A DNA stretch of 64,000 nt. Source: Robiginitalea sp. Its GTDB lineage: Bacteria > Bacteroidota > Bacteroidia > Flavobacteriales > Flavobacteriaceae. The notes beneath the pieces were generated by a model. The model searched no databases and was not told the origin of the DNA. It saw only the letters and a program-made list of their open reading frames with translations. Position 1 is the first letter of the stretch, and each line of letters begins with the position of its first letter. Positions 7,051 through 10,702 of this stretch are shown piece by piece. The translations under genes were made by a program, and so were the position numbers. The DNA lies in assembly GCA_024642005.1 (NCBI GenBank), contig JAHECA010000019.1, forward strand, positions 1-64,000, in the 5' to 3' direction.

Positions 7051-7983
7051 GTGATAACCGTCCGTGGCCTTTCTGAATACACCTATACGAGGCCCAGTGT
7101 GGTTACCATCGGAACCTTTGATGGCGTGCACATTGGCCATCGCAAAATACTCGAGCGGCTCATAGCCTCTGCCCGCACGCTCGACATGCAGGCCACCCTG
7201 CTTACCTTTTTCCCCCATCCGCGCATGGTCTTGCAGAAAGACAGCGGCCTGAAATTGCTAAATACCATCGAGGAAAGGACCCAGATCCTGGAATCTCTTG
7301 GCCTTGATTGTCTGGTGATACATCCCTTTACCCGCGAATTCTCACGGCAGACCGCAACAGCGTTCGTGCGCGACGTGCTGGTTTCTACCCTGCGGGCCCG
7401 CAAGGTCATCATTGGCTACGACCACCGCTTCGGGCGGAACCGGACCGCCAATTTCCAGGACCTGGAAGCTTTCGGCAGGCTTTACGACTTCAAGGTGGAA
7501 GAAATCCCTGCCCAGGAAATCGATGCGGTTTCGGTGAGCTCCACCAAAATCCGCAAAGCCCTGGAAGCAGGCGACCTGGAAACGGCCAACCGGTATCTCG
7601 GGTACGCCTATATGCTTTCGGGCACGGTTCACCGCGGGAAGGGCCTGGGCAAAACCCTGGGATTCCCCACGGCCAACCTGCAGCTCGACGCCCCCTACAA
7701 GCTCATCCCGGCCAATGGGGTATACCTGGTCAAAAGCCAGGTTTCGGGGCGGGAAGTAGCCGGAATGATGAATATCGGCACCAACCCCACGGTCGATGGC
7801 AATGCCCTGCACCTGGAAGTGCATTTCTTTGACCTCGAGCAAGACCTGTACGGCGCCCCCTTGCAGGTGTCGCTGCTGGAACGGCTCCGCGACGAGCGGA
7901 AGTTCGAATCCCTGGATGCCCTTCGCCGGCAATTGGAAGAAGACCACCGGCACGCCCGTGCCCTGCTTGACCGCATGAGATGA
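7051..7983 (+). CDS. ribF: bifunctional riboflavin kinase / FAD synthetase
   Basis: Phosphorylates riboflavin to FMN and adenylates FMN to FAD. The 310 residues hold an N-terminal nucleotidyltransferase domain with GTFDGVHIGH (21-30) and SVSSTKIR (161-168), and a C-terminal flavokinase domain with GKTLGFPTANL (200-210). GTG is used as start; it places the GTFDGVH motif at the usual distance from the N terminus. The last codons overlap the next gene by four bases (ATGA), coupling it to the gamma-carboxylase-like protein. Confidence 0.95.
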   Translation: MITVRGLSEYTYTRPSVVTIGTFDGVHIGHRKILERLIASARTLDMQATLLTFFPHPRMVLQKDSGLKLLNTIEERTQILESLGLDCLVIHPFTREFSRQTATAFVRDVLVSTLRARKVIIGYDHRFGRNRTANFQDLEAFGRLYDFKVEEIPAQEIDAVSVSSTKIRKALEAGDLETANRYLGYAYMLSGTVHRGKGLGKTLGFPTANLQLDAPYKLIPANGVYLVKSQVSGREVAGMMNIGTNPTVDGNALHLEVHFFDLEQDLYGAPLQVSLLERLRDERKFESLDALRRQLEEDHRHARALLDRMR

Positions 7984-9341
7984 ACCGCCTGCTTTTCAGC
8001 CGTATAGACAACAGCCCCCTGATCTTTTTCCGGATCTGTTTCGGGTCGCTGATCGCCCTGGAAAGCTTCGGGGCAATTGCCACCGGCTGGGTCAGGCGCA
8101 CCCTCATTGACCCCGACTTCACCTTTTCCTTTATCGGTTTTGAATGGCTGCAGCCCCTGCCCGGGGGCGGCATGTATTGGTATTTCGCCCTCATGGGCGT
8201 GCTGGGGGTCTGTGTTGCCCTGGGCTACCGGTACCGCCTCAGTACGATCCTTTTCACCCTGCTCTGGACCGGGGTTTACCTCATGCAGAAAACCGCCTAC
8301 AACAACCACTATTACCTTTTGATACTGCTCTCGGCCATGATGTGCCTGTTCCCGGCCCACCGGGCGGTTTCCCTGGATGTGAAACGCCGGCCAGCCCTTG
8401 CAGAGAACAGCATGTTCGCCTACATCAAATGGCTCGTGGTGGCGCAACTCTGGATCGTGTATACCTTTGCCGCCATCGCCAAGTTATACCCCGACTGGCT
8501 CGACCTCAGCTTCATCTCGCAGCTCATGGAACCCAAGGCGGGCTACCCGCTTATCGGTCCGGTGCTGCAACAGCCCTGGGTTCAGCGCGGTATAGCCTGG
8601 TTCGGGATCGGGTACGATTTTCTGGTAATCCCGCTCCTGCTCTGGCGACCCACCCGACGTCTTGCCTTTGCGGCTTCCGTCTTTTTCCACCTTTTTAATG
8701 CCCTCGTTATTCAGGTAGGCATTTTCCCTTTTCTCTCCCTGGCCCTGATGGTGTTCTTCTTCGACCCGGAAGGGGTGCGGCGGCTTTTCTTCCCGCGCAA
8801 ACCGGTTTTTAACGCCCGGGAATTGCACCTACCTGCAGCCGCACCGGCCATTTCCTGGGCCATGGGGCTCTACCTGCTTCTGCAACTGGCCCTGCCGCTG
8901 CGCCACCACCTTATCGAAGGCGACGTGCTCTGGACTGAGGAAGGCCACCGCCTGAGCTGGCGCATGATGCTGCGCACCCGCCAGGGCGATCTTCGCATGC
9001 GGGTGGAAGATGCGCGCACCGGCTTTAGGGAAGTGGTCAAACTGGAAGACTACCTCACCCCAGACCAGCGTGAAAAGGTAATGGCCTATCCCGATTTTAC
9101 CTGGCAGTTCGCCCAGAGACTCAAAGCGAAGTATGCCGCCCAGGGCCACCAGGTTGCCATCTATGCCCGGGGCAGCCTTAAGCTCAACCGACGGCCCTTC
9201 CATCCCTTTATAGACCCGACGGTAGACCTGGCCGCTGAACCCTGGGACCCCTTCCGGCACCATCGCTGGATACTGCCCCCACCGGGCCGGGAACCGGTCC
9301 CTGATTTGAAAGGGCCCGGAGAACCGCGGCCACGGCCCTGA
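7980..9341 (+). CDS. vitamin K-dependent gamma-carboxylase homologue (HTTM domain)
   Basis: A 453-residue integral membrane protein with several transmembrane segments in residues 10-310. Recalled features of animal gamma-glutamyl carboxylase appear in the same order: KTAYNNHYYL (104-113), matching the segment that carries the catalytic Lys218 (KTSWNNHSYL); IVYTFAAIAKLYPDWL (159-174); an FFHxxN segment; LSWRMM; and a C-terminal DPTVDL...W.PF...W..P block. The large C-terminal beta region of the animal enzyme is missing. Known family chemistry couples reduced vitamin K oxidation to carbanion formation on Glu; whether this one carboxylates protein is unknown. Translationally coupled to ribF. 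Confidence 0.85.
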   Translation: MNRLLFSRIDNSPLIFFRICFGSLIALESFGAIATGWVRRTLIDPDFTFSFIGFEWLQPLPGGGMYWYFALMGVLGVCVALGYRYRLSTILFTLLWTGVYLMQKTAYNNHYYLLILLSAMMCLFPAHRAVSLDVKRRPALAENSMFAYIKWLVVAQLWIVYTFAAIAKLYPDWLDLSFISQLMEPKAGYPLIGPVLQQPWVQRGIAWFGIGYDFLVIPLLLWRPTRRLAFAASVFFHLFNALVIQVGIFPFLSLALMVFFFDPEGVRRLFFPRKPVFNARELHLPAAAPAISWAMGLYLLLQLALPLRHHLIEGDVLWTEEGHRLSWRMMLRTRQGDLRMRVEDARTGFREVVKLEDYLTPDQREKVMAYPDFTWQFAQRLKAKYAAQGHQVAIYARGSLKLNRRPFHPFIDPTVDLAAEPWDPFRHHRWILPPPGREPVPDLKGPGEPRPRP

Positions 9342-9421: not shown

Positions 9422-10702
9422 ATGTTGCCATTGCAAACCTTACGGGAAGATGTGGACCGTATTGCGGAGGCCCTTGCGAAAAGGGGGCTCGACGCACGGC
9501 CCATGCTCGACGAGATCCTCGAGCTGGACGAGCGACGCAGAAGCCTGCAGCTCCAACTCGACAATACCCTGGCCGAGGCCAACCGGCTCTCCAAGGAGAT
9601 CGGCAACCTGTTCAAGACCGGCAAGGCCGCAGAAGCACAGGCGCTCAAAGACGAATCGGCCCGCCTGAAGGAGACTTCCAAAACCCTGGGGGAATCACTG
9701 AACGAAGCAGCAGAGGCGCTTCAGCAAGCCCTCTACCAGGTTCCCAACACACCCCACGAATCGGTTCCGGCAGGGAAGGATGCCACAGCAAACCAGGAGG
9801 TACACCGCAGCGGGGACCACCCCCAACTGGGCGCCGGGGCCCTTCCGCATTGGGAACTGGCCAAAAAATACGACCTGATCGATTTTGAGCTTGGGGTCAA
9901 GATCACCGGGGCTGGGTTCCCCGTGTACAAAGGCAAGGGCGCCCGCCTGCAACGCGCCCTGATCAGCTACTTCCTCGACCGCAATACGGCAGCCGGCTAC
10001 CAGGAAGTACAGGTGCCGCACCTGGTCAACGAGGCTTCGGGCTACGGAACGGGGCAGTTGCCCGACAAGGAAGGGCAAATGTATGAGGTAGGCGAAGACA
10101 GGCTCTACCTGATTCCGACAGCAGAAGTGCCGGTAACCAATCTCTTCCGCGATGTTATTCTCGACCGGGCAGAACTGCCTCTTAAATATACTGCCTACAC
10201 CCCTTGTTTCCGGCGCGAAGCTGGCAGTTACGGGGCACATGTACGCGGCCTGAACCGCCTGCACCAGTTCGACAAGGTCGAAATCGTGCGGGTGGAACAA
10301 CCCGAGGGTTCCTATCAGGCCCTTGACGAAATGGTCGCCCATGTGCAAAGCCTCCTCGAAGCCCTGCGACTCCCTTACCGCATTTTGCGGCTTTGCGGGG
10401 GCGATATGGGTTTTACCTCAGCCCTGACCTACGATTTCGAGGTCTGGTCGGCAGCCCAGGAGCGCTGGCTCGAGGTGAGCTCTGTCTCCAATTTCGAAGC
10501 CTTCCAGGCCAACCGGTTAAAGCTCCGCTACCGCGATGCCTTAAACAAGACCCAGCTGGCGCACACCCTTAACGGCAGCGCTTTGGCCCTGCCGCGGATA
10601 CTGGCAGGCATCCTGGAAGACTATCAGGACGAGACAGGCATTCAAATCCCGGAAGTACTGGTGCCCTATACCGGCTTTAGCCGTATTGGCGGCGGCGACT
10701 GA
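9422..10702 (+). CDS. serS: serine--tRNA ligase
   Basis: Charges tRNA-Ser with serine. The 426 residues match the class II family: an N-terminal antiparallel coiled-coil arm that grips the tRNA variable arm (about 30-105), motif 2 with FRREAGSYG, and motif 3 ending in SSVSNFEAFQANRLKLRYRD, slightly changed from the usual SNCxDFQARR but in the right place. ATG 9422 follows a clear -7 element. It stands between the gamma-carboxylase-like gene and a TPR gene with its own promoter. Confidence 0.96.
   Translation: MLPLQTLREDVDRIAEALAKRGLDARPMLDEILELDERRRSLQLQLDNTLAEANRLSKEIGNLFKTGKAAEAQALKDESARLKETSKTLGESLNEAAEALQQALYQVPNTPHESVPAGKDATANQEVHRSGDHPQLGAGALPHWELAKKYDLIDFELGVKITGAGFPVYKGKGARLQRALISYFLDRNTAAGYQEVQVPHLVNEASGYGTGQLPDKEGQMYEVGEDRLYLIPTAEVPVTNLFRDVILDRAELPLKYTAYTPCFRREAGSYGAHVRGLNRLHQFDKVEIVRVEQPEGSYQALDEMVAHVQSLLEALRLPYRILRLCGGDMGFTSALTYDFEVWSAAQERWLEVSSVSNFEAFQANRLKLRYRDALNKTQLAHTLNGSALALPRILAGILEDYQDETGIQIPEVLVPYTGFSRIGGGD

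Follow-up and report, generated by a model that had tools for sequence, protein, structure and literature searches.

A ribF-linked bacterial homologue of vitamin K-dependent gamma-carboxylase in Robiginitalea sp.

Domain content, sequence and predicted fold agree in strongly supporting the homology of the protein encoded between ribF and serS, in the 64,000-nucleotide stretch of Robiginitalea sp. DNA analysed here (the window), to the animal gamma-glutamyl carboxylase (GGCX). The open reading frame is intact, with 453 codons, and the gene is an ordinary member of the GGCX family in its lineage. The homology, the fold, the conserved catalytic residues, the purifying selection and the gene contexts were all computed from sequences and models; building on them, we consider that the product, a ribF-linked bacterial homologue of the vitamin K-dependent gamma-carboxylases (VKGC), probably acts as an inner-membrane, menaquinol-dependent protein carboxylase facing the periplasm.

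Table 1. The carboxylase homologue, its domains and key residues, and the flanking genes, in window coordinates
Feature	Positions	Strand	Basis
ribF, bifunctional riboflavin kinase/FAD synthetase	7051–7983	+	domain match
GGCX/VKGC homologue, 453 residues, group B (ribF-linked)	7980–9341	+	ORF, domains, alignment and predicted fold
HTTM domain, PF05090 (residues 7–263)	7998–8768	+	Pfam, 242.6 bits
Lys104, equivalent to human Lys154 (structural), not the base	8289–8291	+	alignment
Asn108-Asn109-His110, equivalent to human N158-N159-H160, glutamate pocket	8301–8309	+	alignment
IVYTFAAIAKLYPDW block, containing Lys168 and Trp173 (human W223)	8454–8498	+	sequence, alignment
Lys168, equivalent to human Lys218, predicted catalytic base, within AIAKLYPDW	8481–8483	+	alignment
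FFHLFN block (human F286-H287..N290, quinone pocket)	8682–8699	+	alignment
VKGC_lumenal_dom, PF22777 (residues 292–433)	8853–9278	+	Pfam, 161.9 bits
His323, replacing human Tyr395 (Glu-binding)	8946–8948	+	alignment; His in all 32 group-B rows
LSWRMM block (human M401-M402, wall separating the two pockets)	8952–8969	+	alignment
DPTVDLAAEPWDPF block	9213–9254	+	sequence, alignment
serS, seryl-tRNA synthetase	9422–10702	+	Pfam domain match

Homology and predicted fold

The protein has the arrangement by which the VKGC/GGCX family is recognised, an HTTM domain followed by the VKGC lumenal domain, and both scores lie far above the curated Pfam cut-off of 27.7 that applies to each (Table 1); NCBIfam lists no family for the 453-residue protein. 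A phmmer search against PDB sequences matched human GGCX with E 6e-26 over both domains in order, residues 7–433 being aligned with about 57–504 of the 758 human residues. The preliminary description, made from the DNA letters, had called the protein colinear with the animal carboxylase over most of its length; Pfam, phmmer and Foldseek bear out the colinearity over the HTTM and lumenal domains, and the extent holds for the bacterial protein but not for human GGCX, of which only the span just given is covered. The sequence blocks it had picked out (IVYTFAAIAKLYPDW, FFHLFN, LSWRMM and DPTVDLAAEPWDPF) are all present. An AlphaFold2 model, built from a 39-sequence alignment of the window and locus proteins, has a mean pLDDT of 90 and a pTM of 0.88, and its predicted fold is that of GGCX: Foldseek against the PDB library returned 16 matches at E <= 0.001, all of them GGCX (TM by query length 0.63–0.83), with the next match at E 1.4, so the predicted structure that had been suggested as a check on the carboxylase fold comes out in its favour.

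What the window protein has in common with human GGCX (PDB 9mqb, 9wfc, 9bvk and others) is the HTTM core and the core of the lumenal domain, at 22–26% identity in the structural alignments. In contrast to the much longer human enzyme it ends at about human residue 504 and lacks the remaining propeptide-binding domain and the arch, as well as the C99-C450 disulfide, whose positions are taken by Phe and Arg. Since the full propeptide-binding domain, the arch and this disulfide are absent, we do not file the protein as an animal-type GGCX, and the missing propeptide-binding lobe and arch, together with the changed pocket residues described below, imply that its choice of substrate must differ from that of the animal enzyme. 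These comparisons cover Bacteroidota and human sequences. The gene is under purifying selection, with dN/dS of 0.14–0.24 in five of six pairs of the window gene with congeners (dS is saturated in the sixth, and locus L255 was left out of the table), values that are rough because dS is near saturation.

Active-site residues

Human residue numbers follow the structure paper on GGCX (PMC12589487, in its accessible part). Lys218 starts the reaction in the human enzyme, and Lys218 and His160 are described as essential for activity in the available text of PMC9146348. The equivalent of Lys218 is kept in all 85 bacterial rows of the alignment, the window counted among them, and so the retention of the catalytic lysine, singled out earlier as notable for a bacterial homologue, is the norm. 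It is also a different lysine from the one first proposed: the preliminary description took Lys104 as catalytic and let its reading depend on the match of this residue to Lys218, whereas Lys104 aligns with human Lys154 and is ruled out as the base by the alignment of Lys168 with Lys218; the homology to GGCX stands all the same. Human Lys154 hydrogen-bonds D442 and Q446 at the contact of the transmembrane and propeptide-binding domains (PMC12589487, same part), and both partners are kept in the window protein as D372 and Q376.

Among the 85 bacterial rows, Trp223 and Phe299 are kept in 85 each, His160 and Asn159 in 84 each and Lys154 in 75. The window protein itself has equivalents of human Lys218, Asn158-Asn159-His160, Trp223, Phe286, His287, Asn290, Phe299 and Met401-Met402. 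According to the accessible part of the structure paper (PMC12589487), the substrate glutamate is coordinated by His160, Asn159 and Tyr395; in the window protein H110 and N109 are kept and Tyr395 is replaced by His323. Elsewhere human Lys217 is replaced by Ala167 and Arg436 by Lys366, at a variable position, and the quinone-pocket residue Phe294 corresponds to Ile244. The Phe294 column has Phe in 30 of the 32 group-B rows, Leu in one and Ile in the window, and in a smaller alignment Phe in all 23 group-B relatives (this alignment and the first locus table leave out the L045 copy, found by tblastn; L072 was also left out as it duplicates part of L044).

Two gene contexts in the Flavobacteriaceae

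Of 149 genomes of Flavobacteriaceae, the window's family, sampled at one per genus, 115 carry the lumenal domain PF22777; in a phylum sample it is found in 82 of 395 genomes. Two contexts account for 146 of the 150 matches listed: 99 adjoin ribF on the same strand, 47 adjoin imelysin and 4 neither; lower-scoring copies fall outside these 150, and one of them, the ribF-linked G118, was seen in locus L212. Among the best 80 of 576 named relatives, 78 have ribF as the immediate upstream neighbour and 65 have serS immediately downstream. In an 86-row tree the ribF-linked copies group together (support 98/94), and so do the imelysin-linked copies (100/99), joined there by one row whose contig stops before the imelysin position; the 38 distant loci in the tree, 29 of which have imelysin adjoining the GGCX homologue, come from 40 fetched (no ORF was recovered in L214 and L220). 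Eight of the 10 genomes from the window's genus carry a ribF-type copy, the window's included, and the seven congener copies are 61–65% identical to the window protein, with ribF adjoining in all six examined; of the other two genomes one has an imelysin-type copy only and one (74% complete) has no match. The branch of the window protein in the tree measures 0.75, against 0.17–0.51 for the seven other rows of its group, and this long branch together with the modest identity between congeners suggests that the gene is fast-evolving in the genus. Some other members of the family are interrupted: two Flavobacteriaceae copies (G049, G098) each have one stop codon inside the match, and a distant GGCX homologue (L249:4528-5976, + strand) is split across two ORFs.

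The start of the window gene and the stop of ribF overlap in an ATGA at 7980–7983, the four bases reported in the preliminary description, and co-translation with ribF is therefore likely. Is the gene then functionally tied to flavin supply, its co-expression with ribF reflecting a flavin-dependent role or partner? Besides the overlap and the 99 listed matches beside ribF, the tight spacing speaks for this, the predicted start (taken as the first possible codon) lying -44 to +4 bases from the ribF stop in 76 of the 78 named loci with ribF upstream. However, of the 19 loci in which the gene is missing beside ribF (18 of the 34 no-match genomes plus G071; L212 was dropped, the gene being present there, and L196, with a 126-aa opposite-strand ORF between ribF and serS, was counted as adjacent), 17 have ribF directly before serS, and the 47 imelysin-adjoining matches have another setting altogether. 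To our knowledge human GGCX needs no flavin either. We therefore regard the link as positional, given the adjacency of ribF and serS where the gene is absent; gain or loss of the gene between these two neighbours explains the gene order, and a flavin-related function is very unlikely. The coupling to flavin synthesis proposed at the outset thus survives as a conserved gene order, with no sign of a functional flavin link.

The imelysin-linked homologues (groups A and C) are 28–35% identical to the window protein and resemble it in length, in the two-domain build seen by alignment, in the catalytic lysine and nearly always in the histidine. They differ in having mostly Leu158, Thr290, Val401 and Tyr/Phe395 where the window group has Asn, Asn, Met and His, and in standing with imelysin and a TonB receptor or a di-haem oxidoreductase instead of with ribF. 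A gene set that recurs in Bacteroidota, seen in locus L040 (5655-11853) and similar loci among L033-L042 and L213-L247, comprises a DUF4856 or other protein, imelysin, the GGCX homologue and a TonB receptor. By position, imelysin is a candidate substrate of the imelysin-linked paralogue, and imelysin and the TonB receptor its partners. For Riemerella anatipestifer, a table in a section on Fur regulation under iron restriction gives locus tags spaced by five without a gap to four entries: a TonB receptor, a vitamin K-dependent gamma-carboxylase, an imelysin and a hypothetical protein (PMC5609570, in its available part); we found no study of an imelysin-carboxylase link in the open-access literature searched.

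All 38 A-type imelysins adjoining a GGCX homologue (L033-L042, L213-L247) end in exact DGD, and when 59 loci, some with the same genes, were reread at the upstream gene, 58 had this end, L030 also having a DGD-ended ORF; the upstream imelysins of di-haem oxidoreductase operons have different C-terminal ends where seen. The tag was rejected as a recognition signal for the carboxylase homologue. It is kept by imelysins of the same subfamily in L264 and L268, from two genomes with no PF22777 match, and it occurs in imelysins that do not adjoin a GGCX homologue (e.g. L273 and L275); it thus follows the imelysin subfamily, as it is kept where the gene is absent or not adjacent. A DGD DNA pattern matches the window's genome 14 times and its reversed control 23 times; none of the 14 belongs to a DGD-ended open frame of more than 66 codons.

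A possible second HTTM-like protein of the window's genome (L002:1093-2232, + strand, G000:C69) is without a lumenal domain and is of uncertain kinship: in the genome search HTTM scores 36.9 bits along a part of its profile, a whole-protein scan gave no Pfam family at E <= 0.01, and the active-site Lys and His columns of the alignment are occupied by Lys and His. Its gene lies between two ORFs that by eye resemble ATP-grasp proteins.

Substrate, quinone and reaction

The gene that diverges from ribF on its other side encodes a secreted M12B metalloprotease with a P-domain and a T9SS sorting tail (window:3214-6999, - strand), and in the family such metalloproteases are frequent near ribF whether or not the carboxylase homologue is present. 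That the window enzyme acts on this kind of divergent protease (of type M12B or M43, carrying a P-domain and a T9SS tail) would fit the presence of one close to ribF at 15 of the 24 group-B loci and at 62 of the 80 named loci (the best 80 of 576 relatives), but one is also there in 12 of the 19 loci lacking the gene (Fisher p 0.24 against the named loci); being about as frequent without the gene, the protease is not supported as the substrate, and we hold the idea highly improbable. A role of the window enzyme in imelysin-type iron uptake, like that of the paralogues in imelysin-TonB operons, is suggested by the share of listed family matches that adjoin imelysin, and has next to no likelihood here, since the window's genome has no imelysin match and imelysin occurs in only 5 of 65 genomes in which the ribF-linked copy alone is listed; for this genome the reading is largely refuted and imelysin was dropped as a substrate of the window copy. 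DUF4382 lipoproteins are not supported as substrates for the ribF-linked group either, with 49 of 100 genomes carrying the ribF-linked copy having them against 17 of 49 without it (Fisher p 0.12). Acidic DUF4382-like lipoproteins with a C-terminal Asp run, below Pfam's cut-off, are encoded directly upstream of a distant GGCX homologue in L248 (3407-4132, + strand) and L249 (3720-4436, + strand), where they are a possible substrate; the terminal Asp run is absent from twelve sampled DUF4382 proteins and from the window genome's own.

An animal-type vitamin K cycle would have VKOR in the same genome. A search found 0 matches in the window's genome, which extends genome-wide the earlier remark that none is nearby. 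VKOR is present in 23 of the 149 family genomes, 18 of 115 with the carboxylase homologue and 5 of 34 without (Fisher p 1), and with no association it was rejected as a partner; the other 97 of the 115 genomes likewise do without it. The Gla domain PF00594 had no match in the 149 genomes, in a search that returned no positive-control match either. MenD is encoded in the window's genome (330.2 bits for a joined frame, cut-off 244.2), so menaquinone is likely available and, judging from the genes, is a plausible co-substrate.

By analogy with human GGCX, from which we infer the chemistry, orientation and cofactor of the window protein, its catalytic transmembrane core (HTTM) in the inner membrane would bind menaquinol, which Lys168 as the base would deprotonate; oxygen would then turn the quinol into the epoxide by way of a superbase. 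An exported protein, bound by Asn108-Asn109-His110 together with the periplasmic lumenal domain, would offer a carboxylic-acid side chain (glutamate being the likeliest) from which this superbase would remove a proton, and CO2 would add to the deprotonated side chain. The group B copy between ribF and serS is a paralogue distinct from the imelysin-TonB-linked one.

For this carboxylase reading we count the domains, the match to GGCX, the model and its Foldseek matches, the active-site residues, dN/dS, menD and the many carboxylase-bearing genomes that lack VKOR; against it, the four substitutions at Tyr395, Lys217, Arg436 and Phe294 and the lack, in the window's genome, of a VKOR for recycling the epoxide. 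The main rival is that the protein carries out only the quinol oxygenation half-reaction, as a menaquinol epoxidase or with other superbase chemistry, the acceptor being another acid, a lipid or a small molecule and not a protein glutamate. It would account for the retention of Lys168 in a group in which the glutamate-coordinating Tyr395 is invariably His, for the poor conservation of Arg436, for the animal propeptide-binding region being mostly absent and for the lack of any supported substrate gene nearby, and the Leptospira homologue of GGCX reportedly has altered activity. We nevertheless consider it rather unlikely, as all 32 group-B rows retain His110 and Asn109, whose human counterparts coordinate the substrate glutamate. 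The Leptospira protein, likewise a bacterial homologue of GGCX, is known here from its citation alone (in the accessible part of PMC4555120).

For the lineage as a whole, the protein carboxylase reading leads to a tentative proposal, which we hold to be less likely than not: Flavobacteria could have a VKOR-free, menaquinol-driven protein carboxylation of their own, with one paralogue serving the imelysin lipoprotein operon, related to iron, and the ribF-linked paralogue, with His for Tyr395, acting on a different exported substrate. Whether bacterial vitamin K-dependent carboxylation takes place, and on what, looked open in the accessible parts of the open-access literature searched. Across the Flavobacteriaceae sampled it is usual to find a GGCX core that retains its catalytic residues, and this core does not track VKOR; if the proposal is true, Gla-type residues would be widespread in Flavobacteria.
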